The notes under the pieces: model-generated
What the model was told of the DNA's origin: nothing
Database searches by the model: none
What the model saw: the letters and a program-made list of their open reading frames with translations, nothing else
NCBI GenBank assembly: GCA_902557735.1
Contig: CACEBC010000008.1
Span: forward strand, 1 to 64,000
Origin: Porticoccaceae bacterium
Lineage (GTDB): Bacteria; Pseudomonadota; Gammaproteobacteria; Pseudomonadales; Porticoccaceae
DNA: 64,000 bases
Reading direction: 5' to 3'
Made by a program: the position numbers and the translations under genes
In this document: positions 17,412 to 37,485 of the stretch, piece by piece
How positions within the stretch are numbered: position 1 is the first letter of the stretch
Layout: every line of letters starts with the position of its first letter

Positions 17412-17775
17412 AATTTCCCCCTAACTTGCGCTTAATTGAAATGTTGTTTGATGAAGCTACCCTTATTTTTCTGCAACTACACTCTAACTTAAAAATATAC
17501 GCAAGTGAATAGATACCAAGCGCGATGGTTTTCCCCCATTTTTGGCAGAACTTTACCCGAAAAAATAAAAAAAAACTACTTTAATATACTGTTTTATCAA
17601 GACTTAGCCTTCTTTTCTTACATTAAAAATTCTGTCTGATCCTTCTATAAATTTTGAAAATTGCTACAATAATCTATAAAAAAATGCATACCAAGATGCT
17701 TTATAACTGGCGGTTACACCAAATTTTATGCGTTTGACATATGTTTGGAAAAATTTTATAGAAGGGGAAAACGTT
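17412..17775. other. Divergent promoter region between the two receptors
   Basis: 364 bases of very A+T-rich DNA with many short A and T runs, in contrast to the flanking genes. It must hold the promoters of both receptors. The island operator variant is at 17533-17547. No coding region was seen. Confidence 0.7.
17533..17547 (-). promoter_or_regulatory. Island operator variant
   Basis: On the minus strand it reads TGCCAAAAATGGGGG. It shares the 11-base core CCAAAAATGGG with the perfect palindrome at 23750, and has one changed base on the left arm. It sits between two divergent receptor genes, about 120 bases before receptor 1 and 230 before receptor 2. Function as a binding site is inferred from recurrence. 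Confidence 0.5.
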
Positions 17776-20001
17776 ATGGGAAAACTAGTAGTACGCATGC
17801 TATTGGCCAGCTTCCTGCTGCCGGGAGCCATTTGGGCCGTTGCGGATGATGATTCGGCGAGGGTTGGAATAGAAGAAATCATGGTCACTGCAACTCGCCG
17901 CGAAGAGTCAGTGATGGAGGTGCCGCAGTCAATACAGGCCATCCAGCGTGAAACGCTTGAAATGCCAATCTATAGAAATGTGCGGGATATCTTCAATCAA
18001 GTGCCGGGTGCGACCGCGGGTATTACCCAAGGGGGCAAGTTGCCAGTCGCTGAAGGTATCCAACTCAGAGGCAGTGGGATCACACAGACAAATGCTGGAG
18101 GAGGCATGCAGCCGGTAGGCTATTACATTGACGACATACCATATGTAGATCCTTTTGGCGCTACGCCACCGCCTTTGGGTACTTTTGACCTGAACAGTAT
18201 TGAAGTGTTGAGAGGCCCACAAGGAACGAGTTGGGGTCAGGACTCCTCTGCAGGCAGCGTGATCATGAGAACAGCGCCAGTCGATTTTGAGGAGTTTGGT
18301 TACAGGGTTTCAGCAGGTGCTATGACTTACTCAAAGGGAAGTCAGGGCTATGAGTACAGTGCTATTGTTAACGCACCTATTATTGAGGGCAAGCTGGGAC
18401 TGCGACTTGCTTATGAGACTCAAGAGGACCCTGGTTTCGGAAAGGTTCGAGGACGCCCAGAGGTTGAAGAGCCGTTCAACACTGAGCGAGATACATTGAG
18501 GGCGAAATTGACCTGGTTGCCCTCCGAGAACTCGGAGGTGACCTACACACACACGCAGTGGAACACAGAGTATACCTTCATTCCAGGATCTAACATTATT
18601 GACTCGAGTCAAGGAATTATGGAAGTCGTACCTCTTACTTGGGATCTTGGGCTGGAAGTGTTTCCTGATGGTATTCCAACTAACAACTACGATATTGAAT
18701 GGAATACATTGATGGCTAGTGTTGACCTTGGATTTGCCACTCTGACTTACTCAGGAGGCAAGGTTGAGGCCACGGATAGAGATTATAACGATGAAAATCT
18801 CGCTTTTGGGGTCGTTAGCCTAACGGAGATGCCCTCTGATACCACTACGCATGAGATTCGTTTGGTGTCCAAAGACGGCCCAATTGAATGGTTGGTTGGA
18901 TTCCTAGACATGGATGCAGAGAGCGCAAACAATCTCGCTTACAATTTCCAAGTTTACGGAGAATTTACCGATTTCAATCGAACGGACCTCGAGGCTCAAG
19001 CCGCCTATGGCGAAATTACCTGGAATGCTAATGATCAATTTAGTGTCTTTGCAGGCATTCGAAGCCAAGAAGAGGATCGAGTGGAAACTAATACCGCTCT
19101 AATGAGAGCGCCAGGAGATCCACCAGGAGGGCCTTACACTGGCTATGCGCTGGGAGGCGGGACTGCTGAGTACAGCTATGACAACACAAGCTACCGGTTC
19201 GGGGTTCGCTGGATGCCATCGGAAAACGGGATTGTATACCTGACAAGATCAACTGCGTCACGCGCACCGATTCCAGTAACAGAAACGACTCGAGCGCTTT
19301 TAGCGGCTGAGGGTTTCCCCAACTTGAGTGATTCAGACGCCTCAGAGATGGTGAGCACCGAGCTTGGAACTAAGTGGACTTTAATAGATGGAGCTCTTGA
19401 CCTCGAATTGGTTTATGCACTTGGTGAGTGGGAAGATATTCCAATGTATGCTGGCTACGGCCTTGCAGGCGGTCCCTTGTCGGCTGCAATTGGCGGGACA
19501 GACGCTGATATCGACGCCATAGAGGTAATGCTGGATTGGAGAGTAACTGACAGCTTTGGGCTCACATACGTGGGAGCTTTCACCAGCAGCGAGGTGACAG
19601 GCGTTCCAGATCCGTCGAAGGTCGCTAACTTCCCCTCTGCAATTCGTGTAGGCGGTGACTTGTATAACTACTCTCCAAAAACACATTCTCTGACCGCGAA
19701 CTATAACATGGACTTCGATTCGGGTTGGGAGGGATACGCGACTGCCACTTATGCCATGAGGGAAGCGCCGGATGGGTTCAGCTCGGTTCTAACGCCGACA
19801 GCTTATATCAGGGCTTACGAGGACTACAAGGTACTGAACCTAAGTGCGGGTGCACGAAAAGACGGTTGGGATGTCAATGTGTCGATTTCTAACGCCACAG
19901 ATTTCGATGGGCAATACACGCCAGATTACTCCGGTGTTAATCAGTCGATCATCATGTTCCCGAGAGCTTTTCACCTGAGAATCAGCTATAGCACATTCTA
20001 A
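17776..20001 (+). CDS. TonB-dependent outer-membrane receptor 2
   Basis: A 741-residue receptor, paralogous to receptor 1. The start is ATG at 17776, preceded by GAAGGGGA, giving a proper signal peptide (GKLVVRMLLASFLLPGAIWA); an ATG 16 codons upstream would spoil it. The TonB box EEIMVTATRRE, plug motifs GYYIDDIPYVD and IEVLRGPQGTSWGQDSSAG, and terminal Phe (LRISYSTF) are present. It shares long stretches of plug sequence with receptor 1, while the barrel differs more, which fits two related ligands. It converges on the PEP-utilising enzyme gene, separated by a hairpin. Confidence 0.95.
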   Translation: MGKLVVRMLLASFLLPGAIWAVADDDSARVGIEEIMVTATRREESVMEVPQSIQAIQRETLEMPIYRNVRDIFNQVPGATAGITQGGKLPVAEGIQLRGSGITQTNAGGGMQPVGYYIDDIPYVDPFGATPPPLGTFDLNSIEVLRGPQGTSWGQDSSAGSVIMRTAPVDFEEFGYRVSAGAMTYSKGSQGYEYSAIVNAPIIEGKLGLRLAYETQEDPGFGKVRGRPEVEEPFNTERDTLRAKLTWLPSENSEVTYTHTQWNTEYTFIPGSNIIDSSQGIMEVVPLTWDLGLEVFPDGIPTNNYDIEWNTLMASVDLGFATLTYSGGKVEATDRDYNDENLAFGVVSLTEMPSDTTTHEIRLVSKDGPIEWLVGFLDMDAESANNLAYNFQVYGEFTDFNRTDLEAQAAYGEITWNANDQFSVFAGIRSQEEDRVETNTALMRAPGDPPGGPYTGYALGGGTAEYSYDNTSYRFGVRWMPSENGIVYLTRSTASRAPIPVTETTRALLAAEGFPNLSDSDASEMVSTELGTKWTLIDGALDLELVYALGEWEDIPMYAGYGLAGGPLSAAIGGTDADIDAIEVMLDWRVTDSFGLTYVGAFTSSEVTGVPDPSKVANFPSAIRVGGDLYNYSPKTHSLTANYNMDFDSGWEGYATATYAMREAPDGFSSVLTPTAYIRAYEDYKVLNLSAGARKDGWDVNVSISNATDFDGQYTPDYSGVNQSIIMFPRAFHLRISYSTF

Positions 20002-20017
20002 GAAAGTATTACGCGTC

Positions 20018-20040
20018 GGCAGTCCCATTTCGGGGCTGCC
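20018..20040. terminator. Bidirectional hairpin between convergent genes
   Basis: GGCAGTCCC-atttc-GGGGCTGCC forms a 9-bp stem with one T-G pair in the 63-base gap between the receptor 2 stop and the stop of the minus-strand PEP-utilising enzyme. No strong T-run follows on either side. Confidence 0.6.
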
Positions 20041-20064
20041 AGAGTTGCGTATAGTCTTTGCCTC

Positions 20065-22869
20065 TTACTCTAGGGGGTGAATTACCACAGTACCGGCATC
20101 TCCATCGATGGTTATCAACTGCCCATGCTTGATGCGGGTGGTACCGTTTCCGACACCAAGAACCGCAGGTATTCCGTATTCTCTGGCGACAATAGATCCG
20201 TGAGCCAAGATACTTCCGACATCTGTAACTAAACCGGCAGCATGCGCGAAGAGTTGCGTCCAAGCCGGCGTTGTTAAGGGACTTACAAGAATACTGCCTG
20301 GCATCATCTTATCGAACTCCGATGGTCCCAGCACTACACTGGCCTTAGCAGTGATGGTGCCGGAGCTAACAGCGAATCCACGCATGGTATCGCTCCCTTC
20401 GTCGTTGTTGATCTGGGTCTCCTTAAAAGAGACGCCATCAATATTGCTCGCCATGGCAGGCAATGTGCCTGGCGGGTGATGTCGTTTTCGAGCTTCCCTG
20501 AGCTCTCTGCGTTCCTTCGCACGAGCAGCGAACTCCGTCTCGGTAGCAATGTTTGATCGCGCCAGTATGGCTTCGGTAATTTCCTGACTTTCCAGGAAGA
20601 AAATGTCGTCTGAGCGCTCGAAAATCCCGGCCTCAACTAACCTATCACCCAACTCGAAAGCCATCGGTCGCAATATGGACCAGGTGTAACCAAATAGGAA
20701 AGCCACTTCTTCCCGGATATAGTTGTATTTCCTGGCAAGCCAGAGCCTGAACCGAAGTTGCCAATACTCAAGTTCTGGCAGCAGCTCGGTGATTTCTTTC
20801 ATCTTCTGCTCGCGGATTGCAGCGGTCTTTCTGGACTGGTTGTCTGGATGATAGTCCTTATCTCGAACCATAGCCTTTAGAGAGGCGAACAACGCTGACG
20901 GATCCTCTATCTGAGTAGGTTCAATGAAATCCATGCTATAACCCTGGTGACCATATTTTTGTAGGTATTGATCAATTGCTGCGACAGTTTCCGACCCGTT
21001 CTTGTGATCTCGAAGTGCTTGCATTAAAAAAGGCGCGGGCACAACAAGGACTGTGTAGGTGAGCGCCTCATCTGCTCGTATGATCTTCGCTATTTCGAAT
21101 AAATCTGCATTAGATTGCATCGTCTTAGACTTGATGCCTGATAAAAATTGCCCGCTTATGAAATTATGTTCTGGGAGCGTTTCCTGCAGGAATACGTTAA
21201 GCTGGTCGTCAGTCGATTTTGCGACCCCAAATGTGTGACTGCTCCCGCTGCTCCAGTAGTGGCCCTCCTCTATCCCCATCTCACATATGCCATCGAGCAG
21301 CTCTGTGTCGGACGCATTTTTAATATCAAGTTTTCGCCATTTTTCTGCGACTCCCTCTAGCCTTGGTTTACAGTTATCGAACCAATTTTTAAGTTCGCTG
21401 TCATTCCATTTGCTGTGATTGAAAGCGAGATAAGTTTGATGCCCAATTTTTGGGAGGGTCACCAAAGAGTCAATGTTATCCTCTTCTCCGGATCGCCAAT
21501 TGTCGAAGGCTCGTCTCTCATCGTCGTCCAGGCTCGCCCTGAAAGGGTCGATATCACCCACTGCTTGGTCAGTCAACCCTGCAATCAGTTTTTCTTGCTC
21601 AGGGCCCCAGACTGCATGCTCCATCGCCTCAATTTCCTCTTCCGACACGGTACCTTGTTCGCCCTGAGCCCTGAGGTCCTCCATATACTCGTGAAGTTGA
21701 GGCCAATCAAAACGCTGATAACCATATCCGTTCACTGTAACGAACATTGGGCCGCCGCCATGCATGCCGAGGCCTTTTTTTCGAGGTGACTCAAGCCCTC
21801 GAGTTAGATATAACTCTTCAAATAGTGGGCAGATGGGGTCCGGCATGTTTTCAACAATTTGTCTACGGCTGACGTAGACGGCTGGAGGGGTTGGCTCCCA
21901 GACCACCTCTATGGGTTGGACAGGAAGATTAGTAATTGGGCGAGACTGGAGTAGATGTAATTCGCCCTTGCAGAAGGCCCATTCAATATCTTGAGGCACC
22001 CCATCATAGAGGTCTTCAATTTTCAGAGCGCACTCGGTAAGTTTTTGTAGCATTTCGTCAGACATCGAGGAGTTATCACGATTCGCTTCAGATACATCCT
22101 CAAGCCGCACGCCTTGGTCACCATCAGCAACAATTTGTTGTTTTTTGGGGCCAAGGATTGATTCTTTAATCTCTAGGGTGTCGTGATCAACGACAAAGGT
22201 GTCCGGGGTCACCTGTCCGCCAACTACAGCTTCCCCTAGGCCAAAACTCGCGTTTATTATCATTTCGGACCGCTCACCTGAGGCAGGATTGGCTGTGAAT
22301 AATATGCCCGAGACATCAGAGGGGATCATCACCTGGACGACCACGGCCATAGCTACGCTACCTTGATCAATGCCGTTCTGATGCCGGTAGCTTATCGCTT
22401 GGGCGGTCCAGAGGGATGCCCAGCACTTGTGGACTGCCTCGGCGACCTGATCGGCACCTCGGACGTTTAGAAAGGTTTCTTGCTGCCCGGCGAACGAAAA
22501 GTCAGGCAGGTCCTCTGCGTTGGCTGAGGATCGAACAGCTACCGGACATTCGCCTCTATTAAGCGCATAGTACGCAGTCTTGATTTCGTCGAGCATGCTG
22601 TCGGCCATTGGCGCCCCTCGAATCAGTGCGCTGATCTCATCCGAGCATGCGTCAAAAACTGGATATCCCTCCTTGAGGCGAGGCCTGGCTCTGTCAAGGA
22701 TAGCTGGTTGAAGTGCATTGTCAGATACGAATTTCCGGTAGGCATCGGCGGTCACAAGAAATCCGCCGGGCACAGAAAATCCGGCTCGGGCCATCCGGGC
22801 TAGTGATCTACCTTTGCCTCCTATTAGCTCGAGAGAATCAGCAGTCGTGTCTATGGGTGTGGTGTGCAT
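20065..22869 (-). CDS. PEP-synthase / rifampicin-phosphotransferase-like dikinase
   Basis: About 934 residues. The N-terminal ATP-binding domain of PPDK/PEP synthase is clear: LIGGKGRSLARMARAGF, VAVRSSANAEDLPDFSFAGQ, FTANPASGERSEMIINASFG. The C-terminal end is the swivelling phosphohistidine domain, ILAHGSIVAREYGIPAVLGV, with His in the expected place. The PEP-binding barrel of true PEP synthase is absent; a middle region of about 450 residues replaces it, as in rifampicin phosphotransferases. I infer ATP-driven phosphorylation of a small molecule by a His relay. The ATG at 22869 is chosen; the frame extends to 22911, overlapping the SDR gene by 20 bases. The two genes are probably one operon. 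Confidence 0.85.
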   Translation of the reverse strand: MHTTPIDTTADSLELIGGKGRSLARMARAGFSVPGGFLVTADAYRKFVSDNALQPAILDRARPRLKEGYPVFDACSDEISALIRGAPMADSMLDEIKTAYYALNRGECPVAVRSSANAEDLPDFSFAGQQETFLNVRGADQVAEAVHKCWASLWTAQAISYRHQNGIDQGSVAMAVVVQVMIPSDVSGILFTANPASGERSEMIINASFGLGEAVVGGQVTPDTFVVDHDTLEIKESILGPKKQQIVADGDQGVRLEDVSEANRDNSSMSDEMLQKLTECALKIEDLYDGVPQDIEWAFCKGELHLLQSRPITNLPVQPIEVVWEPTPPAVYVSRRQIVENMPDPICPLFEELYLTRGLESPRKKGLGMHGGGPMFVTVNGYGYQRFDWPQLHEYMEDLRAQGEQGTVSEEEIEAMEHAVWGPEQEKLIAGLTDQAVGDIDPFRASLDDDERRAFDNWRSGEEDNIDSLVTLPKIGHQTYLAFNHSKWNDSELKNWFDNCKPRLEGVAEKWRKLDIKNASDTELLDGICEMGIEEGHYWSSGSSHTFGVAKSTDDQLNVFLQETLPEHNFISGQFLSGIKSKTMQSNADLFEIAKIIRADEALTYTVLVVPAPFLMQALRDHKNGSETVAAIDQYLQKYGHQGYSMDFIEPTQIEDPSALFASLKAMVRDKDYHPDNQSRKTAAIREQKMKEITELLPELEYWQLRFRLWLARKYNYIREEVAFLFGYTWSILRPMAFELGDRLVEAGIFERSDDIFFLESQEITEAILARSNIATETEFAARAKERRELREARKRHHPPGTLPAMASNIDGVSFKETQINNDEGSDTMRGFAVSSGTITAKASVVLGPSEFDKMMPGSILVSPLTTPAWTQLFAHAAGLVTDVGSILAHGSIVAREYGIPAVLGVGNGTTRIKHGQLITIDGDAGTVVIHPLE

Positions 22870-22891
22870 AATATTTTCATTACCTATATAG

Positions 22892-23662
22892 TTATTCCCA
22901 GAACCGATCAAGTTTGAACCACGCTCTGACAGGGAACTCCTCGCCCGTGATCATGTCAGCCGCCGGGGAGGCAAGAAAGCAGCACATGTTTGCTACGTCG
23001 ATCGGACCCGGCGGCAGGGTCAGTCGTGGCACTCTCTCGCCGTCCTCAGTTTTTTCCGGAGGGATGACGCCATAGCCGATCATAGCCGGCGTTGCAATCA
23101 GCCCAGGCACCACAGAATTAACGCAAATATTATATTTTGCCCAAGAGTATGCGAGGTTGTTGCTCAAGCTTAAAATGCCGGCCTTGGCGGCTGAGTAGTG
23201 AAGCAGGCCGGGGTTACCCTTAGTACCTGCTGTGGACGAGATGTTGATGATCTTTCCGAAACACTGTTTGATCATTTGTTTGCCTGCTGCCATACAGCAA
23301 TTAAAGGTACCGGTTAGATTGATGTCGATCATTCGCACCCAGTCATCGTAAGATGTGTCCTCAGGTTCGCAAGGACGCACCCCGCCGCCCGCATTGTTGA
23401 TCATTACATCGATATGTCCAAACTCTGATACTGTCGCGTTGATGAGGTTTTCCACCGAATCCGGTTTTGTGATATCAGTTTGTATGGAGAGCGTTGAGTC
23501 ACCTGCCAGATTTTTTTCTGTTTCTTGCAAGGCCCCTTCATTCCTACTAGCAAGCACCACGGTAGCTCCAGCGAGTGAAAATTCCCGAGAAATGATCTGG
23601 CCGATCCCTCCGGCGGCACCCGTCACGATGACTACTTTGTTTTTAAGTTCGGAATTAGGCAT
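22892..23662 (-). CDS. Short-chain dehydrogenase/reductase 1
   Basis: A 256-residue classical SDR. It has the NAD(P) motif VTGAAGGIGQIIS, the NNAGGG strand, Ser in INISSTAGT and the YSAAKAG catalytic pair. AGGGA lies 8 bases before ATG 23662; a GTG one codon upstream is possible. The C-terminus after DMITGEEF is slightly unusual, ending in a charged aromatic tail. It oxidises or reduces a hydroxyl or keto group, probably on a sugar acid given the context. It is transcribed ahead of the PEP-utilising enzyme and is divergent from the GH32 gene. Confidence 0.92.
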   Translation of the reverse strand: MPNSELKNKVVIVTGAAGGIGQIISREFSLAGATVVLASRNEGALQETEKNLAGDSTLSIQTDITKPDSVENLINATVSEFGHIDVMINNAGGGVRPCEPEDTSYDDWVRMIDINLTGTFNCCMAAGKQMIKQCFGKIINISSTAGTKGNPGLLHYSAAKAGILSLSNNLAYSWAKYNICVNSVVPGLIATPAMIGYGVIPPEKTEDGERVPRLTLPPGPIDVANMCCFLASPAADMITGEEFPVRAWFKLDRFWE

Positions 23663-23749
23663 CACATCAGTCCCTAAATACAGGCGAGTTTATTATGCAT
23701 CCTATCAATTTTTAAGGCATCAAGGCGGCGTGAAATATTAGAATAAACC

Positions 23750-23765
23750 CACCCAAAAATGGGTG
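23750..23765. promoter_or_regulatory. Perfect palindromic operator, type site of the island motif
   Basis: CACCCA-AAAA-TGGGTG, 6-bp arms with a 4-base A spacer, in the 192-base gap between the divergent SDR and GH32 genes. Related sites occur at 17533, 27070, 35375 and 36231. The core CCAAAAATGG happens to fit the eukaryotic CArG pattern, which is presumably coincidence. A dimeric regulator is inferred. Confidence 0.65.
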
Positions 23766-23854
23766 ATAAGAGCCCGTCATAGCAGCTAACAGCTTTATTA
23801 TAGTTGCAAAAAAGAGCATCCTAGTGAGCAAGCGTCGAGATAAGGATATAGGCT

Positions 23855-25210
23855 ATGGTTGATGAGTATGGTGAACTGCATCGGCCTCAATTTCATTTTA
23901 CAGCGCGCAAAAACTGGATCAATGATCCTAATGGTCTTGTGTTTCATGACGGGCTTTGGCACTTATTCTTTCAACATAATCAGGACGCTCCCACATGGGG
24001 TAGGATGTGGTGGGGGCATGCGGTCAGTCGCGATTTATTTCACTGGCAACAGTGCGAAAATGCCCTCTACCCAGACGACATGGGGAGCATGTTTTCAGGA
24101 TCTGCTGTTGTTGATCATGAGAATACCGCCGGATTCGGAGCGGATGCGCTACTGCTTTTCTACACTGCCTATGGAAAACATGCTAAGCCTATTCGGCCCA
24201 CCTCTCAGTGCCTCGCTTACAGCACCGACAATGGCAAGACATGGACAAAGTATGTTGCCAACCCGATCGTTGGGTGGATGGAGGCGGATAATCGAGATCC
24301 CAAGGTGGTCTGGCATAAGAGTACTCGGCGCTGGATTATGGCGCTGTATCTAGAGGATGACCGCTACTGCTTGCTCAGTTCGAGCGATGCCAAGACCTGG
24401 ACGCGGTCTCAAGAGATCAGACTGAATGGGGATTCGGAGTGCCCCGATTTTTTCCCGATAGCAGATGATACGGGAGCGGAGAAGTGGGTTTTTTCAGGCG
24501 CTGGCGGAAGCTACAGCGTGGGTGACTTTGATGGAAAAGTCTTTGTGCCCGAAACACCGGTTCTTCAATACGAACGTGGGCGAAATGGTTATGCAGCACA
24601 GACTTGGAGTAACGCGCCAAATAACCGGCGGATTCAGGTTTCTTGGATGGCGGGAGGCAGGTACCCCGAAATGCCCTTTAATCAACAATTGTCAGTACCT
24701 GTGGAGCTGTCTCTGGCCGGTTCAGGGGGCTCAGTTACACTCAATCGCTGGCCTGTCCATGAGTTAGACCTTCTGCGCGTAAGGACCGTTTCTGTTGGGA
24801 GAGAAACGATCTCTAAGGATAAGCCAATGGTTGCGCAGACCGATGCAAAGTTACTGGATGTGTCATTTAAGGTTTTTCGGCAATCTGCAAAGGGTTTTTA
24901 TGTCGTCGTTCGAGGACATCCGATAGTGTTCGATTGGGACGCGATGACGCTGAGCGTCGAGACGAGCGGAAAGAGTAAGATGACCGAGGATAGGCCGTTC
25001 GTCAAACTACCAGACACGGTTATGCTTGACGTACGATTGATTATCGATCGAACCTCCATAGAGGTGTTTTTAGATGGTGGATCAATTTCTGCCTCCTATT
25101 GTTTTCTTCCAGACGGTTACGTAAACCCCTTGGTGCTCCATTCGTACAGTGGTGAGCAAATCATTGAAGATTTTGAGCTTCATGAGCTTGTCTCAACTTG
25201 GAAAGCATAA
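23855..25210 (+). CDS. Glycoside hydrolase family 32 (beta-fructofuranosidase/levanase type)
   Basis: A 451-residue GH32 enzyme. The nucleophile motif WINDPNG has Asp24, the transition-state motif RDP has Asp148, and the acid/base motif ECPDF has Glu195; all three are intact. A five-bladed propeller is followed by a beta-sandwich, ending with the typical DRTSIEVFLDGG. It cleaves fructofuranosidic bonds as in sucrose, levan or inulin. There is no signal peptide, so it should act in the cytoplasm on short oligosaccharides. AAGGA precedes the ATG. The phosphoesterase gene follows after 1 base. Confidence 0.94.
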   Translation: MVDEYGELHRPQFHFTARKNWINDPNGLVFHDGLWHLFFQHNQDAPTWGRMWWGHAVSRDLFHWQQCENALYPDDMGSMFSGSAVVDHENTAGFGADALLLFYTAYGKHAKPIRPTSQCLAYSTDNGKTWTKYVANPIVGWMEADNRDPKVVWHKSTRRWIMALYLEDDRYCLLSSSDAKTWTRSQEIRLNGDSECPDFFPIADDTGAEKWVFSGAGGSYSVGDFDGKVFVPETPVLQYERGRNGYAAQTWSNAPNNRRIQVSWMAGGRYPEMPFNQQLSVPVELSLAGSGGSVTLNRWPVHELDLLRVRTVSVGRETISKDKPMVAQTDAKLLDVSFKVFRQSAKGFYVVVRGHPIVFDWDAMTLSVETSGKSKMTEDRPFVKLPDTVMLDVRLIIDRTSIEVFLDGGSISASYCFLPDGYVNPLVLHSYSGEQIIEDFELHELVSTWKA

Positions 25211-25211
25211 G

Positions 25212-25976
25212 ATGGATGATCAGTCTAAAATCTTGATTATTAGTGATGTTCACGGTAACGCAGAGGCGCTTCGAGCTGTTATGAATGCTGAGGATGATGC
25301 GGACCACGTAGTCTTTCTTGGCGATGCTTTTGTGTCCGGTCCGCAGCCTATCGAGACGGCGGAACTGCTTGAGAAGCTAGATGCTGATGTATCGATTATG
25401 GGGAACCACGACAAGGAAGTTCTTGATACCAGCCTTTTTGCGCACTGGCCAGAGGGATGGATAGCATTTAATGAATGGATAATCGGATCACTGGGCAAGG
25501 ACGTCGTGGACCGAGTGCGAGCATTCAAGCCAGCAGGGGAATACCGGGTCGGTGGCATCTCAATGTACCTCCACCATGGGGAACTTGAAAAGGAAATGCC
25601 TTCACCTCTCCCAGATTCGCCCGCAGAGAGTTTTCTGGCTATGGGTAGCGAAAATCGTTGTCCGCTAGTCCTTTTTGGGCATACACATGTCCAGTTTACC
25701 CGAACCATCGGCGAGAAAACGTACATAAATCCCGGAAGCGTAGGGCAGCCTCGCTGTGGTAGGCTCCACGCGTGCTACGGCGTGTTTGAGAGCGGGCTCT
25801 ATTTTCCGCGTAAGGTGACCTATGACCCCAGGCCCTGGATTGAGGCGCTCGAGAGTTTAGAGGTCCTAGAGCGCCGGCCATCGATGAGGCAGTGGCTTAA
25901 GACTGCTCTTCTGAGCGGTTATGGGATCGGTGAAAAAGAACCTTGGACCCGTTATCACTCTCAGGGCTATGCTTAG
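25212..25976 (+). CDS. Metallophosphoesterase (YfcE/calcineurin-like)
   Basis: A 254-residue calcineurin-like phosphoesterase with the ordered motifs ISDVHGNAEAL, VFLGDAFVSGP (the usual GDxxDxGP altered), MGNHDKEV, LHHGE and FGHTHVQF, and PGSVGQPR near the end. This set is typical of YfcE-type phosphodiesterases. The start is ATG 25212, just after the GH32 stop; the frame runs back into the GH32 gene without a ribosome site. It may remove phosphate from an intermediate of the island pathway; the substrate is unknown. Confidence 0.9.
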   Translation: MDDQSKILIISDVHGNAEALRAVMNAEDDADHVVFLGDAFVSGPQPIETAELLEKLDADVSIMGNHDKEVLDTSLFAHWPEGWIAFNEWIIGSLGKDVVDRVRAFKPAGEYRVGGISMYLHHGELEKEMPSPLPDSPAESFLAMGSENRCPLVLFGHTHVQFTRTIGEKTYINPGSVGQPRCGRLHACYGVFESGLYFPRKVTYDPRPWIEALESLEVLERRPSMRQWLKTALLSGYGIGEKEPWTRYHSQGYA

Positions 25977-26128
25977 AAGTGGCATTGATGCCAGTAAAGA
26001 ATGTTAAATCGATGTTTTAGAGCGGGATGTGATCCATAACTCGATAAGATTGCAATCATTGAAACTGTGGTATCAAGCCTCTGGTTAAAAAAGACGTGAG
26101 CTGAAAGCCGCCCTCAGTCTTGCGCTTA

Positions 26129-26147: not shown

Positions 26148-26190
26148 GGACTGTTTGGAATACTTTGAAACAGCATCCTCAGATGGAATT

Positions 26191-26766: not shown

Positions 26767-27240
26767 TTATTTTTTCTCCTTGCTATTCCCCCTGGCTCCT
26801 TACAACAATATTTTAGATACATAAGGAAATTTACTTGTGATTTCAGCTGCTGTTGCAATTAACGAGGTTTTTCATACGTATTCTGCACCGCTTAGAGGGG
26901 TCAATTAACATGACTTTTAAATTTCATTGGCCTATCCAGCATAGGCACCACGATTGGGTACGACCATTTGTCTCGGAATGGGTAAATCTATTGGTTCATA
27001 ATTTAAAACAAATCTTCCGCAACTTCTATTGTTTCATTAACAGCAAGGTCCGTTTTGGGAGAAACATATCCCCCAAAATGGGTGAGAATTGTTGTTGGCG
27101 CCCTATCGATCCTTTATTGTTGTTGTGAAAGATACCAAACTTTGTGGATAAGCTTAAGGAATGGCAGATAAAATTCGCATCATTGGAGTTATTTTGTTAA
27201 TTGGCTGACACAAAAACCTTTCTGTAGGGCAGATGCAATT
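26767..27240. other. Long divergent intergenic region with a compound operator
   Basis: 474 bases between the HD and enolase genes. It holds the compound operator near 27053-27085. A 91-codon open frame at 26853-27128 has no ribosome site or recognisable product and runs through the operator; I do not call it a gene. Confidence 0.6.
27053..27085. promoter_or_regulatory. Compound island operator (three overlapping arms)
   Basis: TTTTGGG at 27053-27059 pairs with CCCAAAA at 27072-27078, and the latter overlaps a second inverted repeat CCCA-AAA-TGGG ending in TGGGTGA at 27085. So one copy of the island motif (CCCCAAAATGGGTGA) sits beside an extra inverted arm. The distance to the enolase start is about 155 bases. 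The spacer is one base shorter than in the type site at 23750. Confidence 0.55.
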
Positions 27241-28434
27241 ATGAAAATATCCGGCTTTGATACGTTACATGCCGATGCGGGTCGGTCTTTCTCATTTCTT
27301 AAAATAACCACTGATGAGGGTATAACCGGGTGGTCTGAATATACCGGTATTTCAGAGATTATTCGCCGACAGGGTCTCACTGCACTTATTGAATCAATGG
27401 CGCAACTTCTTGTTGGAAGAGACCCTAGGGAGGTTGAGAGACTGACCAACGACCTTTACTCTGCGACCCGCCAGTCCCTGTCGGGCTTAAATCATCAGGC
27501 TATCGGCGCCATCCAAAATGCCCTATTGGATATTGCCGCGAAGGCCTTGGATGTTCCCGTCTACCGTCTTTTTGGCGGGCCGCTAAGAACGAGGATTCCG
27601 TTGTATTGGTCGCACTTTGGGACTTACAGGTTGAGACGAGGTCATGAAATTCACCAAAAAAAACTGATTCGAGACTTAGATGGCATGGCCGCCCATGCCC
27701 AAGATGTGCTGGCAGCGGGATACCCAGCGCTGAAAACCAAGATCCACTATTTTGATGAGACTGGTGGGACCGGCTACTTCCCGTGTTTTGGCAGTGAAAC
27801 TGGCGCACCAGAACTAAATCTATCGCAATCAATTCTCAAGGCAATTGTGGATCAGATGACTGTTCTCAGGGAGGCAGTGGGCGATGAACTGGACCTTATC
27901 CTAGATTTAAACTCGAACTTCAAGACCGACGGTATCATACGAATTGCTCGTGCGATGGAGCACCTAAATATACGGTGGCTCGAGGTTGATGTGTTCGATG
28001 CTGATGTTCTGAGGGACATCCGCGACCGATCCCCCATGCCCATTGGTGGTTGCGAGATGCTCTGCACTGCTAGAACTTACACTCCGTTTTTTGGCCGCCG
28101 CTCAGTCGATGTCCCTCTGGTGGATGTCGTCTGGAATGGATTTCTGGAGTCAATGAAAATCGCTTCCGTTGCCGATGTCTTTGATTTAAACGTTTCGCCG
28201 CATAATTTTACCGGGCACCTAGCCACGCAGATCAATGCTCACTTTTCAGCTATCACTCCTAATCTCGAGCTGATGGAATTTGATGTGGATGAAGTGCCCT
28301 GGCTTGGCGAATTTTTTACCGAGCCACTGCAAATTGAAAAAGGAGTTTTGGTGCTGAGCGAAAAGCCAGGATGGGGCATGGATGTCGACGAGGAGGCGGT
28401 CAGGGCTAGGCCACCCAGGGTTCGAATTGACTGA
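27241..28434 (+). CDS. Enolase-superfamily enzyme (mandelate racemase type) 1
   Basis: A 397-residue enolase-superfamily protein. The Lys motif ALKTKIHY (KxK) is at the base of the barrel, metal ligands are Asp in LILDLNSN, Glu in RWLEVDVF and Glu in GGCEMLC, and a His is in NVSPHNFTGH. The family takes a proton alpha to a carboxylate; members of this kind are often sugar-acid dehydratases or racemases. It is not closely similar by eye to the second enolase protein at 32538. A putative operator lies upstream. The DUF3089 gene follows on the same strand. Confidence 0.9.
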   Translation: MKISGFDTLHADAGRSFSFLKITTDEGITGWSEYTGISEIIRRQGLTALIESMAQLLVGRDPREVERLTNDLYSATRQSLSGLNHQAIGAIQNALLDIAAKALDVPVYRLFGGPLRTRIPLYWSHFGTYRLRRGHEIHQKKLIRDLDGMAAHAQDVLAAGYPALKTKIHYFDETGGTGYFPCFGSETGAPELNLSQSILKAIVDQMTVLREAVGDELDLILDLNSNFKTDGIIRIARAMEHLNIRWLEVDVFDADVLRDIRDRSPMPIGGCEMLCTARTYTPFFGRRSVDVPLVDVVWNGFLESMKIASVADVFDLNVSPHNFTGHLATQINAHFSAITPNLELMEFDVDEVPWLGEFFTEPLQIEKGVLVLSEKPGWGMDVDEEAVRARPPRVRID

Positions 28435-28532
28435 GAATAAAACGGTAATGAACTTCTGATTTACCTTCATTCTAGGGCAGCTTGCAACATTTTCTTCCGG
28501 TGAGGCTGCGCGAGATCTTTAAGGAGATCGCC

Positions 28533-29714: not shown

Positions 29715-29726
29715 ACTGTGGTTATC

Positions 29727-30683
29727 TCAGGTTCCCAATAAGAATTTCAGTGGGATATGCAGCCTCTCCCGCCATGCTCTAGGTAAATGGCTAGCACCCT
29801 CGAACCGATGGGTCACCCAGTCCTCGTTTTCCCTATAGCCTTTCTGGCGCATTAAAGCATCCATCTTCTTTTGGAACGGCTCATACTCCGCATCAAACGA
29901 TTTCGTTCCATAATCAAAGTACAATCTGTGTGTTCCTGCAACTGGCCAATTATTTTTGTACCAATTAACAACCGCGCCTTCGCCCAAAACCCAGTGGGTG
30001 GACAGGCAAGCGGCTGCTCCGAAAACCTCCGGATATTCAGATACCGCATATGCTGAGATCATCCCACCCATACTTGAGCCCATGATGAGAGTGTTGTCGG
30101 CATCAGGTTTGGTGAGATATGTTTTGTCGATGAATGGTTTAAGTTCGGACACCAAGAACTTGAGATAGTTGTCTGAGGTTATGGCCTCACGTGTTATGTC
30201 TGACTCAGCTCGAAGAAGCCGGCCTATCTCTTCGGTTACCGGTTTCTGGGGCATGTATTCCGTCCTTCTTTTAACCTCGGGAAGGTTCCAGACCGAGACA
30301 ACAATCGATGGCCTTATCTGTTTTGTCGCAATCAGATGTGTGATAGTCTCATCAACATTCCAGAATACGCCTCCATAAATCGAACCCTTAATTCTTTCCC
30401 AGATGCTGGTATACGGTGAGGTTGAACGATCAAACATGAACTGTCCATCGTGCATATAGATGACTGGGTAAGGGTCGTCGGATTCCTCATAGCCATCGGG
30501 AATCCAAACATCGACCGGCCTAGTTTCGACGAGGTTGGATGGAAAGGACGGATAGTGGACAAGGGTGCCAGGCTTTGAGTCGTCAATCACGGCATTATAC
30601 CTGGCATCTTGTGATCCGAGTCCATGGGTCGGGAGAATGCAAATAGACAATACTAGAGCAAAATTGCCGATGGTTTTGATCAT
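29727..30683 (-). CDS. Secreted esterase (esterase D / feruloyl-esterase-like)
   Basis: A 318-residue alpha/beta hydrolase of the putative-esterase (PF00756) family, with a signal peptide (IKTIGNFALVLSICILPTHG). It has PVIYMHDGQFMFD, the nucleophile elbow IMGSSMGGM (Ser) and a late His in FEGASHLPRAW. It should cut an ester in the periplasm, as acetyl xylan or feruloyl esterases do. It follows the kelch gene by 44 bases and probably closes the minus-strand operon. Confidence 0.88.
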   Translation of the reverse strand: MIKTIGNFALVLSICILPTHGLGSQDARYNAVIDDSKPGTLVHYPSFPSNLVETRPVDVWIPDGYEESDDPYPVIYMHDGQFMFDRSTSPYTSIWERIKGSIYGGVFWNVDETITHLIATKQIRPSIVVSVWNLPEVKRRTEYMPQKPVTEEIGRLLRAESDITREAITSDNYLKFLVSELKPFIDKTYLTKPDADNTLIMGSSMGGMISAYAVSEYPEVFGAAACLSTHWVLGEGAVVNWYKNNWPVAGTHRLYFDYGTKSFDAEYEPFQKKMDALMRQKGYRENEDWVTHRFEGASHLPRAWRERLHIPLKFLLGT

Positions 30684-30727
30684 TCAAAATCTGACCTTAA
30701 ATAATCCTGTTGTTTTAACAGCTTTGG

Positions 30728-31741
30728 CTACGTCCTGTCCGGTAGATCGGTGACCCAGACTTCTGGTGACGAAATTTGCCTATCTGCCCAATAGTTGCGA
30801 TCTGGGGTTTCTTCCGTCATCCGACCGTCCCAGCCCCCCGCAACATATAATCGCCCTTTAATGACTTTTGAGGCTGGGGAGGACATCGGTTTGGGCGCCA
30901 TGCATGTGAGCTCCCATTCCTCGCCCTCGCCAAGACTCACCACGTTGCCGCAGAAGCCTTTTTTTCCGCCCTGAGGCGTGGTGTGTCCAGCAACCATCCA
31001 GATCCGGTTGTCGTGGACGAATGTGGCTCCTTCGGAGTGGGAGTGTCCATAGGGCAGCGAAGGTCCATCGGCCCAAGTGTCGCTCGCGGGGTCATAAATA
31101 TCGACGCGATCCTGATCGATCTGCTGAGAGTCATGATTTAGTTGCCCTGCTACAACATAGATTTTGTCGTTCAGCACTGCCACCGACAGTTGGTTCCTTG
31201 CCAGCGGCAAAGGGGCAAGGTTCCTCCAGGTGCCATTCCCCGTAGCCCTCCACTCAGCCACGTCAAGAACCCAGTGGTCTGGCGAGTCTGTATCCCGATC
31301 CTCCATAAGGCCAGAAATATAGTGCAGGTTGTCACCAAGCCTAGCCAACCCCCCGCCAGCTCTTCGACCCGGCAGCAGCGGCCCGGCTGTGTAGCGGTCT
31401 TCCTGAATATCAAAGTGCCAGGTCTCCGCAATAATATGGTCCGGTTTCTTACCAGCGGGCCGATCCATATCCTTCATGCCACCCGCATACCAGAAACCTG
31501 TCTCGTCTGGTGCAAGATTAACGTGATTCGTGGCGCTTGGCAGGTCCTGCAAGCGTGTCCAGCTGCCGTGAGTGCCTGCCGCTGGATCAAAGACATGCAA
31601 TTTTTTCCTGGTAATGATCTCGGACTCATATCCGCCATGTACATACAATTTATCGTCTATGGCAATGCTAGCGGGCTCCCATTTTCCACATGGCATATCG
31701 GGTAACCGTTCCCATTTAACTTCATAAACAGGTTCACTCAT
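30728..31741 (-). CDS. Kelch-repeat beta-propeller protein
   Basis: A 337-residue protein built from about six kelch repeats, each with a Gly-Gly or similar pair after a strand and a later Trp (for example IDDKLYVHGGYES, LYVAGGWDGRM). No signal peptide, so it is cytoplasmic. Relatives include N-acetylneuraminate epimerase-type and galactose-oxidase-fold proteins, so a sugar epimerase or mutarotase role is possible. Its start ATG overlaps the SDR stop by one base (TAATG), so it is translationally coupled to that gene. Confidence 0.82.
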   Translation of the reverse strand: MSEPVYEVKWERLPDMPCGKWEPASIAIDDKLYVHGGYESEIITRKKLHVFDPAAGTHGSWTRLQDLPSATNHVNLAPDETGFWYAGGMKDMDRPAGKKPDHIIAETWHFDIQEDRYTAGPLLPGRRAGGGLARLGDNLHYISGLMEDRDTDSPDHWVLDVAEWRATGNGTWRNLAPLPLARNQLSVAVLNDKIYVVAGQLNHDSQQIDQDRVDIYDPASDTWADGPSLPYGHSHSEGATFVHDNRIWMVAGHTTPQGGKKGFCGNVVSLGEGEEWELTCMAPKPMSSPASKVIKGRLYVAGGWDGRMTEETPDRNYWADRQISSPEVWVTDLPDRT

Positions 31742-32538
31742 TAACCTTCCTCCTTTGGAAATTGTCGATTCATTGCCGCAAGCATGTCCTCGCAGCGTTT
31801 TTCTAACATCTTTCTGGTGTGCGTTCCATCGCAGAAGATGTAAAACTCTTGGTTCTTGATCGCGTTGAGAACTTGCTGCCCCACCGTATCTGCCGGGACA
31901 GCCATGTCCTCGATCATCTCTCTTACCTGGTCATTAACTTTCTCTTTCAACGCATCGATGATCGGAGTATCAGCAACGTGCGGGCACAGCACCGATACGG
32001 ACACCTCGGTGTCGGTTAAATCGTTTCTAAGGAATTCCGAGAGCCCTACCAGAGCAAACTTGCTTGCCCCATAGCAGGACTGGTTCCCATGCCCATGGAT
32101 TCCACTAAAGGAGGATGTGTTTACAATATGACCCTCCTCACCGCTCTCTAGCATGCGGGGTAGGAAGACTTTGATACCATTAATGGGCCCCCAGAGGTTA
32201 ACTTCTTGGACCCGTCTCCAGCGGTCGTCAGGCGTCTCAAGCACCTTCGCTCCACCCCCTATTCCGGCATTGTTACAAAGAACTTGCACAGTGCCGAACC
32301 GTCTCTCAATCATCTCGGCCACTTCCTGGAGCGCGGATCTGCTGCAGACGTCAACATTCACCGCCATGATGTTATTTGAGATAGCCTTTAATTCAGCTTC
32401 TGCGCGATCAAGTCGGTCGTCCTGAACGTCCCCTATCACTACATTCATGCCTTCCTTTACTAGCGTTTTTGCTATTCCAAAACCTATTCCGCTTGCTCCT
32501 CCGGTAATGAAAGCTGTTTTGTTGATAATTTCTTTCAT
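31741..32538 (-). CDS. Short-chain dehydrogenase/reductase 2
   Basis: A 265-residue classical SDR with ITGGASGIGFGIAKTL, CNNAGIGGG, NTSSFSGIHG and the YGASKFAL catalytic motif. Asp in VIGDVQ suggests NAD rather than NADP use. Its ATG overlaps the upstream enolase stop by one base (TAATG). In this operon it probably oxidises a sugar or sugar acid before or after the dehydratase step. Confidence 0.92.
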   Translation of the reverse strand: MKEIINKTAFITGGASGIGFGIAKTLVKEGMNVVIGDVQDDRLDRAEAELKAISNNIMAVNVDVCSRSALQEVAEMIERRFGTVQVLCNNAGIGGGAKVLETPDDRWRRVQEVNLWGPINGIKVFLPRMLESGEEGHIVNTSSFSGIHGHGNQSCYGASKFALVGLSEFLRNDLTDTEVSVSVLCPHVADTPIIDALKEKVNDQVREMIEDMAVPADTVGQQVLNAIKNQEFYIFCDGTHTRKMLEKRCEDMLAAMNRQFPKEEG

Positions 32539-33650
32539 TATTTCTCCAACACCTTATTACGGTGAATCAGTTCGAAGTCTATTTCGACACCCAATCCTGG
32601 TGCTTGTGGCGCGTGTACCATCCCGTTTCCATCGACCTCGATGTCATTGATAAGACCATGCTTCTGCGCAGCATCCGGCAAGAGCACTTCAAAATACTCA
32701 CAATTACGTATGGCCATAATGAGATGAAGGTTGGCTACATTCGTCAGAGAATTCCCCCCATGATGCACCTCATAATTCATCTGGAATGTCTCTGCCGTAT
32801 GCGCAGTTTTCAGGCAGGAGGTAAGACCGCCCTTGATTACTGGATCGCCTCGCAGATAGTCGGTCGCCTGCTGCATAATCCAGGGCGCATAGGCCTTTGG
32901 TCCCGTGGAAGGAAGCTCCGTTGCAGCTAAGGGTATTTTTAGCACCTGCTTTAGTTTCACGTAGCCATAGATATCGTCATAAGGCAATGGGTCTTCGTAC
33001 CAATAAAAATCAAGTTCCTCCGCTGCGCGTCCGACTCGAAGGGCGTCCGGGTAGCTGTAGGCCCAGCATGCATCAAGCATCAGTCGGTAGTCATCACCCA
33101 CTGCCTTTCGCACCATCTCACAAATCTTAATATCTAGCAGCGGCTCAGCGGGCGGATGAATTTTGTATGCAGACCAACCCAGTTCCTTGTATTTCAAAGC
33201 CTCCTCCACGTAGTGCTGAGGAGTCTCTAGGATCGCGGAACTTGCATAGGCGGGCACTGAGTCCCTGTAAGAACCCATAAGCTTGTGGATTGGAATGCCC
33301 GCAGCCTTTCCTCCTATATCCCAGAGTGCTATGTCAATTGCGCCAATTATCCGCATAGCATTCCATCCGATTGCCCAGGTTGATAGGTTCTGCCAAATTC
33401 GTTCACGGTGGAGTACATCTTGTCCAACGAGCAGAGGCTTGTATCTTTCTATGATCTGGTTGACATCATTCCCAATTGAGCCAAGCGAAGAGCCCAGGAA
33501 TGCATGGCCCTCTGAGCCGTCCTCAGCAACAATTGTGACCAGCGCCAGATGAGCGTTATGCGAGCCTGAGCTTTTGAAATGCTTTGTATAACTGGTGGCA
33601 GGGATATTTTTCCACTCCCAAACAGTGACCTTAACATTGGAAATTTTCAC
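32538..33650 (-). CDS. Enolase-superfamily enzyme (mandelate racemase type) 2
   Basis: A 370-residue enolase-superfamily protein. SAYKIHPP gives a KxH base, metal ligands are Asp in LMLDACWAY, Glu in YWYEDPLP and Glu in AATELPSTG, and YEVHHGGNS carries a His. This set fits acid-sugar dehydratases. The start is GTG, overlapping the stop of the ADP-ribosylglycohydrolase gene by 4 bases (GTGA), so the two are coupled. Confidence 0.92.
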   Translation of the reverse strand: MKISNVKVTVWEWKNIPATSYTKHFKSSGSHNAHLALVTIVAEDGSEGHAFLGSSLGSIGNDVNQIIERYKPLLVGQDVLHRERIWQNLSTWAIGWNAMRIIGAIDIALWDIGGKAAGIPIHKLMGSYRDSVPAYASSAILETPQHYVEEALKYKELGWSAYKIHPPAEPLLDIKICEMVRKAVGDDYRLMLDACWAYSYPDALRVGRAAEELDFYWYEDPLPYDDIYGYVKLKQVLKIPLAATELPSTGPKAYAPWIMQQATDYLRGDPVIKGGLTSCLKTAHTAETFQMNYEVHHGGNSLTNVANLHLIMAIRNCEYFEVLLPDAAQKHGLINDIEVDGNGMVHAPQAPGLGVEIDFELIHRNKVLEK

Positions 33651-35284
33651 TCTTGTTTCTCCTGATCTTTCGAGACCCTCACCCCACTAACAGGCTGCGC
33701 TCCAGGATAGAAGAAACCCTCCAAAGTGTCGTCATCAATTTCGCCTTCAAAGTCAACCTCGTAATCCCATCCACCCTTGTCAATCGCGAAACTAAACTTC
33801 AGTTCGGGGTGGTTATAGGAGCTAGATGCGAGCTTACTTGGGTCTGGAATGTCCTCGGTGGCATAGCTGCCCATGTCTGTAAACTCTATGATTGCTTGAG
33901 AGAAATTGAGCAGCTGGGTGCCCCAGGCGGACTGGAGTTCCCAGCTCCCCTCTGCGGGCCCTTTTAGCTTTTCTTTTGCAGTTTTTTCCGGAGCAGAGTC
34001 GATCTTCTTGCTAATTGCAAAGGTTCGCTGCGCTAGGTCAGAGATTTTGTTATCGTTCTCGCCGCCAACGGCGGAAAGCAGACGATCATTGAAAACGCCT
34101 ACCCATTTTTCAGGCAGCGACTTCGCACCATCCTTTACGCCTAGGATGGAACCAACCGTTGCGCCGGTGCAGTCTGTGTCCCAGCCACCCCTCACTGTAT
34201 AAACGATACCCTTCTCGAAATCTTTCTCACCATAATAAAGACCCATAACAATTAATGCGGCGTTGTTGATCGTATGCACCCCATGATAGTGCCCATAGTG
34301 CTCGTTGATTTTGACCCAGACATTTTCCCAGTTCTTCTCATGCTGGCACCAAGAAAATGTATTTCGCACACACTCAGCAAGGCGACTCTGAGCGGGTATT
34401 TCCCCAAGTCCAGCGGTTATAATGTCCTCGGATTTGGAGTAAACAAAGGCGGCTGCAATCATCGCGGCGACGAACATTTCACCATAAATACCGTTCTTCT
34501 CGTGCGAGATGGACGCATCTCGAAATGCTAACTCTGCGGCTAGCTGAGGTTTCCCAGCTGCTACATAGCCAAAGATATCGGCACGGATTTGAGCACCTAT
34601 CCACTCACGATAGGGATTGCGGTAGCTTGCTGATTCGGGGGGCCAGATGCTCATAACGAAATTTCGATATGCCGCTTTCTCTGCCGTATAAACCGCCCCA
34701 TAAGACATATTGGCGATCCATATGCTGGCCATGCTTCTCGGCGTCAATTTAGGGCCATAGCGTTCCAGTGCCATTAGCCCGAGTATCGGGTAATCCATAT
34801 CATCGTCCCGGTCCATGTACCTGATATTGCCGCGGGTTGATGGCTTGTGAACGCCTGACATATAGGTATCTGAAAATGGAAGATAGTTGTCGAGCTGCAG
34901 CGAGTTGGTCTCGCGGAGGAAAGTGTCAATTCGGTGCTTTGGCCACCCCTCAACTGGTTTGCCAAGTGCGCATCCGGCGGCCCGGCCAAGCCACCCGCCA
35001 TAGATTCTGTTATAGATCTCAGCATCGTCGCTGGTTACGCTTAGTTCTCGCGGTGCATCGGGACGTTCTGCTTGAATTGCCTCCAAAGTCGACGGTTCGG
35101 TGTAGGGAAAAGAGGGTTCTATGGGCAGATTCACTAATTCTTCATAGAGGCGCTTAAAATCTGTAGTTGAGCCATTCCTTTCGAGCGCAGTAGCGATACG
35201 AGAGGCCATTTCTTCAGTCCTGCAGCCCTCCTCGTTACGTTGTTTCAATTCAAGTTTTATAAGCTTTTGTTCTAGTGAACGCAT
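33647..35284 (-). CDS. ADP-ribosylglycohydrolase-family protein (paralogue 2)
   Basis: A 545-residue paralogue of the protein at 4941. It shares WLGRAAGCALGKPVEG, NPYREWIGAQIRAD and NGIYGEMFVAAMIAAAFV. The first metal site is YMDRDDDMDY and the second GGWDTDCTGATVGS. It is longer at the C-terminus by about 100 residues, a beta-rich extension with GSWELQSAWGTQLLNF that I do not recognise. It starts the minus-strand operon with enolase, SDR and kelch genes. This placement argues for a glycoside- or riboside-cleaving catabolic role rather than protein de-ADP-ribosylation; that is inference. Confidence 0.86.
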   Translation of the reverse strand: MRSLEQKLIKLELKQRNEEGCRTEEMASRIATALERNGSTTDFKRLYEELVNLPIEPSFPYTEPSTLEAIQAERPDAPRELSVTSDDAEIYNRIYGGWLGRAAGCALGKPVEGWPKHRIDTFLRETNSLQLDNYLPFSDTYMSGVHKPSTRGNIRYMDRDDDMDYPILGLMALERYGPKLTPRSMASIWIANMSYGAVYTAEKAAYRNFVMSIWPPESASYRNPYREWIGAQIRADIFGYVAAGKPQLAAELAFRDASISHEKNGIYGEMFVAAMIAAAFVYSKSEDIITAGLGEIPAQSRLAECVRNTFSWCQHEKNWENVWVKINEHYGHYHGVHTINNAALIVMGLYYGEKDFEKGIVYTVRGGWDTDCTGATVGSILGVKDGAKSLPEKWVGVFNDRLLSAVGGENDNKISDLAQRTFAISKKIDSAPEKTAKEKLKGPAEGSWELQSAWGTQLLNFSQAIIEFTDMGSYATEDIPDPSKLASSSYNHPELKFSFAIDKGGWDYEVDFEGEIDDDTLEGFFYPGAQPVSGVRVSKDQEKQE

Positions 35285-35363
35285 AGCGATGCCCTCAAAT
35301 TATGATTGAAAAACAAGGCTACCAGCGTCAGAAAATGGCTACAAGCCAACCGATTCGGAGCAA

Positions 35364-35391
35364 ATGGGTTTGTCACCCATAAAAAATGGTG
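35364..35391. promoter_or_regulatory. Compound island operator before the minus-strand operon
   Basis: ATGGGT-ttgtc-ACCCAT is a perfect inverted repeat at 35364-35380, and its right arm continues into CACCCATAAAAAATGGTG, a relaxed copy of the type palindrome. The compound layout, with one arm shared by two inverted repeats, resembles the site at 27053. It lies 80 bases before the operon start and also faces the plus-strand genes. Confidence 0.55.
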
Positions 35392-35577
35392 CCCTGGATC
35401 AAGCGCGTCTGTGTCCTTCAAAGAATTTTTCCGTGCTTGTCCTTTGATTTATCTAGTTTTGTCACGTCTTTTAAAGTTAATAATCCAGATAATATTTTAT
35501 GGGTGAATTTTGGATCAAACGCGCTTGATTACGGTCTGGAAATCGTGGAAAGTGATTCTTTTTGTGGAGGGAATCGA

Positions 35578-36210
35578 TTGTTTGTTATCGATATGAATAG
35601 TGTTAAACAGGTCGGCGAATTCGGCTCAAAAGCATGGTGTGAGGCATGTGCCGCCTTCGGCGTAGAGATTCTGAAAGCATCAGATCTTCCGGGGGATTTG
35701 TCATGGGGTTTTAGTGAAATCTATACCTCGCCGCCCTCTAGGCTAGTCAGCGATGATTGGCCCGTGTCTGGATATCACTTCATGATACATGAGGGGCTAG
35801 TGTCAGGCGGAGGAGGTGTTACAGACGCTTGTCTCGCGTTGCCCGGCTTCCATGTCAGGATGCGCTGGGCCTACATTTGTAACCAGTCGAGCACGAAATA
35901 CGGGTTTGAGGGCCAGCGGCAGCGAAGTTCAGAGGAGAATGTGCTTAAGGAACAAATGGCCAATTATCTTGGTTTTGAGCCCAACCTTGGGGCAATAGAC
36001 AACCCTGTTTGGCCAAAACCTATAATCGCTGCTTTAAGTGTTGGTGTCGAAGAGGGTGCGGGCTTGCACAATATTGCGGCAAGCCTCCAAATGTCTTCGC
36101 CGGAGTTTTCTGGTCTCCCAGTTACGGAAATGGGAGTGCCAGAATTTTCATTGATGAGCGATAGCCAGAAAGAATTTTTCTTGGCCTTGTGCGATATAAA
36201 TAGATCATGA
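35578..36210 (+). CDS. Conserved-looking protein of unknown function
   Basis: About 210 residues from TTG 35578, chosen because GGAGGG at 35566-35571 lies 6 bases before it. The frame extends back to an ATG at 35386 that lies inside the operator, which makes that start unlikely. I do not recognise the family. No signal peptide or membrane segment. It has a Cys-rich start (WCEACAAFG), a Gly-rich loop (HEGLVSGGGGVTDACL), and a late stretch GVEEGAGLHNIAASLQ. Its position between the operator and the transposase-like gene suggests a role in regulation or in the pathway; neither is supported further. Confidence 0.65.
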   Translation: MFVIDMNSVKQVGEFGSKAWCEACAAFGVEILKASDLPGDLSWGFSEIYTSPPSRLVSDDWPVSGYHFMIHEGLVSGGGGVTDACLALPGFHVRMRWAYICNQSSTKYGFEGQRQRSSEENVLKEQMANYLGFEPNLGAIDNPVWPKPIIAALSVGVEEGAGLHNIAASLQMSSPEFSGLPVTEMGVPEFSLMSDSQKEFFLALCDINRS

Positions 36211-36230
36211 TCTACATTGCCATGCTGTTA

Positions 36231-36242
36231 CAAAATGGGTGA
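36231..36242. promoter_or_regulatory. Island operator half-site before the transposase-like gene
   Basis: CAAAATGGGTGA, matching the right half and flank of the type palindrome. It sits about 55 bases before the ATG of the transposase-like gene. The left arm is degenerate (ACA for CCA). If bound by the same regulator, it would give feedback on this gene. Confidence 0.4.
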
Positions 36243-37483: not shown

Positions 37484-37485
37484 CA

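Follow-up and report, generated by a model that had tools for sequence, protein, structure and literature searches.

An oriented TGGGTGA box lies before transcription units of a catabolic island in marine gammaproteobacteria and points to a single regulon

Genes and boxes of the island

The stretch of DNA analysed here, which we call the window, is contig 8 (64,000 nucleotides) of a 1.95 Mb, 69% complete assembly of a Porticoccaceae bacterium. Genes in it were called by a simple longest-ORF rule and assigned with Pfam, which gave nothing useful for the orphans hyp35 and hyp36. The genes and units that concern us are as follows.

11260..12892, + strand: unit of two cyclase-family genes (Pfam)
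15138..17411, - strand: TonB receptor 1 (Pfam)
20065..23665, - strand: unit of SDR1 and a PPDK/PEP-utilising protein (Pfam)
23855..25976, + strand: unit of GH32 and a metallophosphoesterase (Pfam)
27241..28434, + strand: enolase-superfamily gene 1 (Pfam)
30728..35284, - strand: unit of an ADP-ribosylglycohydrolase (ADPRH), enolase 2, SDR2 and a kelch protein (Pfam)
35563..36210, + strand: orphan gene hyp35, without Pfam match
36296..39672, + strand: unit of orphan hyp36, an abhydrolase, PhyH and a class II aldolase (Pfam)

The conserved start of hyp35 lies at about 35563, not at 35386. Both orphans (35563-36210 and, for hyp36, 36296-37483) travel with the ADP-ribosylglycohydrolase operon across genera.

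A short box, defined below, is found upstream of these units.

2587..2602, + strand: doubtful box, known by its matrix score, about 200 bp before an iron alcohol dehydrogenase gene (FeADH) and inside the start of a divergent AMP-binding gene
11172..11187, + strand: box before the PF04199 cyclase pair cyc1-cyc2, 76 bp from the start codon, with TAAGCT 40 bases after the box
17528..17543, - strand: variant box TGGGGGA (CCCCCATTTTTGGCAG at 17533), 120 bp upstream of TonB receptor 1; L112 and G005 also have it ahead of TonB receptors
23745..23760, - strand: box before the SDR1-PPDK operon, the left arm of a palindrome, 83 bp from the start; identical in the G005 alignment
23755..23770, + strand: box before GH32-metallophosphoesterase, the right arm of the palindrome, 88 bp from the start; present in 11 genomes
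27074..27089, + strand: box between an HD-domain gene and enolase 1, 155 bp before enolase 1; present in G005 and the genus
35369..35384, - strand: box before the ADPRH-enolase 2-SDR2-kelch operon, 88 bp from the start; TTTTATGGGTGACAAAC is kept in G005
35495..35510, + strand: box before hyp35, kept in G005 and also found before hyp35 in G003, G004, G025 and G042
36231..36246, + strand: box before the hyp36-abhydrolase-PhyH-aldolase operon, 53 bp from the start; ATGGGTGAATAT is kept in G005 within a diverged intergenic region

A clear box was missing at the heads of the window units of TonB receptor 2, dtnK, DUF3089 and, the doubtful copy aside, FeADH. This doubtful copy points at the alcohol dehydrogenase gene, and a site similar to it, TTTGGGTGG, occupies a similar place in a genome of another genus (G025, L318:11888).

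Pattern searches and retrieved stretches, on which all genome-wide counts here are based, gave 13 copies of the relaxed form WWATGGGTGANW in the assembly. Six lie in the window between 11.2 and 36.2 kb, all of them intergenic once the start of hyp35 is corrected, and the other seven are all within genes or at start codons. The form AAAATGGGTGA occurs five times in the whole assembly, three of them in the window.

The conserved element is one-sided

A sequence-only reading of the window had proposed a recurring palindrome, CACCCA-N4-TGGGTG, as the motif of the island. Its perfect copy, CACCCAAAAATGGGTG, is indeed present at 23750-23765, and the variants were located at, or within a few bases of, the positions given for them (17533, 27069, 35374 and 36235, with a half-site at 11176); a further copy, at 35499 on the + strand and kept in G005, had been missed. 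The description of these sites as intergenic, at the heads of units and often between divergent genes was borne out. What recurs, however, is not the palindrome. The exact form CACCCANNNNTGGGTG has a single occurrence in the 1.95 Mb assembly (23750-23765), and its degenerate version, allowing up to three mismatches, gives 36 matches against 21.6 +/- 4.4 expected, a weak pattern barely above chance. In most of the listed variants only one side gives a good match, and the one-sided core ATGGGTGA, recurring in the form WWTGGGTGA, is common to all of the listed sites except the variant at 17533. The conserved element is an asymmetric box, WWWTGGGKGRnWWY with core TGGGTGA, oriented toward the gene that it serves.

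At the GH32 promoter, where one of a pair of cores (TCACCCA-N-TGGGTGA) faces SDR1, the spacer is 4, 8, 9 or 11 bases across genomes; core to core it runs from 4 to 11 bp among the 11 genomes with a divergent SDR1/GH32 promoter. Because the spacer differs in this way, the perfect palindrome at 23750-23765 consists of two independent boxes placed back to back, which serve SDR1 and GH32 respectively. Loci without SDR1 have a single box facing PPDK. In L119, two boxes (4504 and 4525) stand before a TonB receptor as a direct repeat exactly 21 bp apart.

These arrangements bear on the palindrome as the symmetric operator of a dimeric regulator (GntR, LacI or similar). Sites of LacI- and IclR-family regulators are typically symmetric with fixed spacing. 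The perfect copy at 23750, present here and in G005, speaks for such an operator; the spacer of 4, 8, 9 or 11 according to genome, the single boxes or 21-bp direct repeat (L119) elsewhere and the near-chance frequency of the degenerate palindrome all speak against it. With arm spacings of 4-11 bp and most sites single, no fixed-spacing inverted repeat emerges; we rejected the palindrome as the recognition unit and regard a symmetric operator as very unlikely.

The box is conserved across genera and enriched at promoters

The closest relative carrying the same island is 'Porticoccaceae bacterium SP98' (G005, L104). In its alignment with the window, the core is conspicuous, with 26 identical bases, in the otherwise diverged intergenic DNA upstream of SDR1/GH32, and is likewise kept amid divergence before enolase 1, the ADP-ribosylglycohydrolase operon and the orphans at 35.5 and 36.3 kb. 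At 11176 the surrounding DNA is near-identical in G005 and the comparison is hence uninformative there; genomes further removed do carry a box upstream of that gene. The variant at 17528..17543 has no G005 alignment at the same promoter, where the G005 DNA is unrelated.

Further loci, about 35 from gammaproteobacteria including other genera, were collected by a GH32 protein scan, so that sampling was GH32-centred throughout and related genomes are not fully independent. The SDR1 box is kept in all nine tabulated genomes at 81-87 bp, the GH32 box in 11 genomes at 80-108 bp from the start, and the ADPRH box at 77-95 bp upstream in seven further genomes. For the cyc1 orthologue, the box lies 52-76 bp upstream in L112, G025, L120, L121, L136 and L142. 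The enolase 1 box (27074..27089) is kept in G005, takes the form AAATGRGTGG in six further genomes from the genus and is absent from the sister genus g13. In relatives, boxes also precede cyc1, dtnK, ADP-ribosylglycohydrolase, both orphans, TonB receptors and metallophosphoesterase genes. Box-to-start-codon distance is gene-specific and, for most genes, nearly constant; enolase 1 boxes lie farther out, at 121-156 bp. In four loci the metallophosphoesterase gene has TGGGGGA in place of TGGGTGA, exactly 52 bp upstream; TGGGGGA is also found upstream of a TonB receptor in L112 (122 bp) and of TonB receptor 2 in G005 (114 bp), and is a tolerated variant of the box. Where a GH32 relative occurs without the rest of the island (L106, L107, L108, L111, L116 and L117), there was no box before GH32.

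Could the box be a short word repeated by chance or composition, noticed through one palindromic copy? In favour of such an origin, the bare TGGGTG often occurs in the window's coding DNA. Against this, in an unbiased ranking of 7-mers from 15 loci of other genomes, none of which had been used in defining the motif, TGGGTGA came top of all, in 27 of 79 upstream regions and in 14 loci. Its density in the 15 loci was 15.2 per 10 kb between genes versus 1.4 inside genes. WWTGGGTGR was found within 180 bp upstream of 63 of the 135 island unit heads versus 4 of 123 heads of other genes (p = 3e-17, a value that counts related genomes as independent and is thus too small, although the contrast is still large); about half of the island unit heads are without a clear box. 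These results, together with conservation across genera, leave chance repetition scarcely credible.

A matrix trained only on other genomes placed six boxes of the window among its seven best matches there. The 2587 copy ranked first (score 19.0), yet is in coding DNA; the boxes at 36231..36246 and 11172..11187 scored 18.3 and 17.2, and the 17528 variant and the 35369 box came lower. Neither of the two outcomes named as refuting the sequence-only reading occurred: the motif is enriched in promoters over coding DNA, and cores are kept in orthologous promoters across several genera.

A probable single regulon that reaches beyond the island

As expected of a regulon, the same site stands before several separate units, enriched over background, and is conserved in orthologous promoters of several genera. 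One regulator very probably switches the island. The single regulon suggested earlier is strongly supported by sites that in this assembly are confined to the island, conserved across genera and enriched at promoters; it also reaches an SDR/acyl-CoA dehydrogenase promoter on another contig and an MFS transporter in G005. The former has AAAATGGGTGA in the DNA that separates an SDR operon from an acyl-CoA dehydrogenase gene (contig 31); this copy is kept in another genus (G025), in poorly conserved surroundings. The latter is located elsewhere in the G005 genome and has its own inverted box pair; an MFS gene 59% identical to it adjoins SDR1-PPDK in L105.

The box links about 28 kb of genes without assigned joint function in uncultured marine bacteria: TonB receptors, GH32, two enolase-superfamily enzymes, SDRs, an ADP-ribosylglycohydrolase-family protein, cyclases, PhyH, an aldolase and orphans. 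As a sequence handle it can lead to more members, such as the MFS transporter and the acyl-CoA dehydrogenase operon, and also to the regulator; to learn the substrate, both are needed. Literature searches on TGGGTGA, on Porticoccaceae regulons and on the island gene set found nothing relevant.

Position of the box in predicted promoters

In 19 of 54 non-redundant promoters, from eight gene families, the box is followed at 40 or 41 bases by a -10-like hexamer; no neighbouring pair of offsets reached 19 in any of 1000 shuffles. SDR1 and some ADP-ribosylglycohydrolase promoters have the hexamer at 50-52, about one helical turn farther, and a general periodicity of 10-11 bases is weakly supported (26 of 1000 shuffles). 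The -35 hexamers, judged by eye, are poor. Since the -10-like hexamer follows 40-41 bases after the box, the core would be centred near -57 from the predicted transcription start. On these predicted promoters, the box lies upstream of -35 and at a fixed distance from -10, as expected for an activator site.

We consider it likely that one sequence-specific activator, with its gene outside the island, binds the box and turns the island on as a regulon. Such an activator may contact RNA polymerase from near -57 and make up for the weak -35 sequences, with one box read per promoter; divergent genes would carry two boxes back to back and so take on the look of a palindrome.

The same box could instead be the operator of one repressor that blocks the promoters when the substrate is absent, a regulon under negative control that all of the regulon evidence fits equally. 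In its favour, some boxes come near a -10-like sequence or overlap it (enolase 1 of the genus: TGGTATAAT). Repressors usually bind at sites that overlap the promoter, at varying positions, whereas here the box is at a fixed distance upstream of -10 and, in most promoters, outside the -35/-10 region, which suits an activator better; negative control has a small but appreciable chance of being right.

An element of the mRNA leader (an sRNA target, part of a riboswitch or a leader peptide starting ATGGGTGA) would account for the nearly constant distance to start codons and for the ATG within the core. It sits poorly with the -10-like elements downstream of the box, with boxes serving both directions in divergent regions and with the frames after ATG GGT GA, which are not kept between G000 and G005 (hyp35 in G005 has TTTGGGTGA). 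We rejected this reading, which is highly improbable, on the lack of frame conservation and the -10 downstream of the box.

In L115, L119, L120, L122 and L123, the box upstream of the metallophosphoesterase gene is placed exactly 52-53 bp from the start codon, and TAAGCT follows 40-41 bases downstream of the box. Transcription there may start at or near the ATG, giving a possible leaderless mRNA.

Candidate regulators and known systems

No recognised regulator gene was present within the island in any genome read, and no regulator gene with its own box was seen in the island flanks of G003, G004, G005 and G025. A search of 17 genomes with the pair pattern for a regulator promoter gave, among the matches inspected, only GH32/SDR1, the G005 MFS promoter and coding matches. 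Three candidate families were rejected. Among AraC proteins, no orthologue group spans the full set of island carriers: G003, G006 and G010 have only group A, which G005, G025 and G042 are without. The RpiR gene of the window (44051-44923) is matched in all genomes searched, whether or not they have the island, and in G005 the match is broken although the boxes are intact. A LuxR/GerE domain is absent from G000, G003 and G005, all of them box carriers. As the assemblies are incomplete and absence from one genome is weak, the argument from absence rests on G005, G006, G010 and G025, which are 92-97% complete. The RpiR gene of the window adjoins the island; its G005 match (L295, G005:C36:4124-4324) is interrupted by stop codons.

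Sites of AraC/XylS-family activators are asymmetric, oriented and set at a phased distance upstream of weak promoters. The island box is likewise asymmetric, oriented and phased, and L119 has its direct repeat 21 bp apart, but most island promoters are without a second half-site and the carriers have no AraC orthologue group in common. MalT, the LuxR-type activator of maltose genes, reads a short, asymmetric, oriented box with core GGAKGA, single or in varied pairs. The island core GGGTGA is similar, and also single or paired in varying arrangement; unlike the MalT case, G000, G003 and G005 have no LuxR/GerE domain despite their boxes. In two comparative-genomic studies, LacI- and IclR-family sugar-catabolism regulons are defined by a conserved site before scattered catabolic units (PMC4052901, PMC8222616). 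The island shares that layout and differs in its one-sided box and in a regulator outside the gene neighbourhood.

We see here a new regulon, ordinary in kind. More speculatively, and in our judgement unlikely, the regulator may belong to a family not known to control catabolic islands; its gene would lie far from the targets and be conserved in several lineages of marine gammaproteobacteria, and the protein would activate from a single half-site near -57 and recruit relocated genes by gain of one TGGGTGA.

The dtnK, carboxylesterase, DUF3604 and kelch genes (8255-11154 and 30728-31741) are 97-99% identical to G005 (L027/L028), against 75-90% for their neighbours, which suggests that parts of the island were recently exchanged. 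A housekeeping block at 48-64 kb (trkA, rsmB, fmt, def, tsaC, hemF, aroE, cox genes and a Fur-like gene) is also on the island contig of G003 (L320, G003:C8); the chromosomal surroundings of the island are thus roughly preserved.
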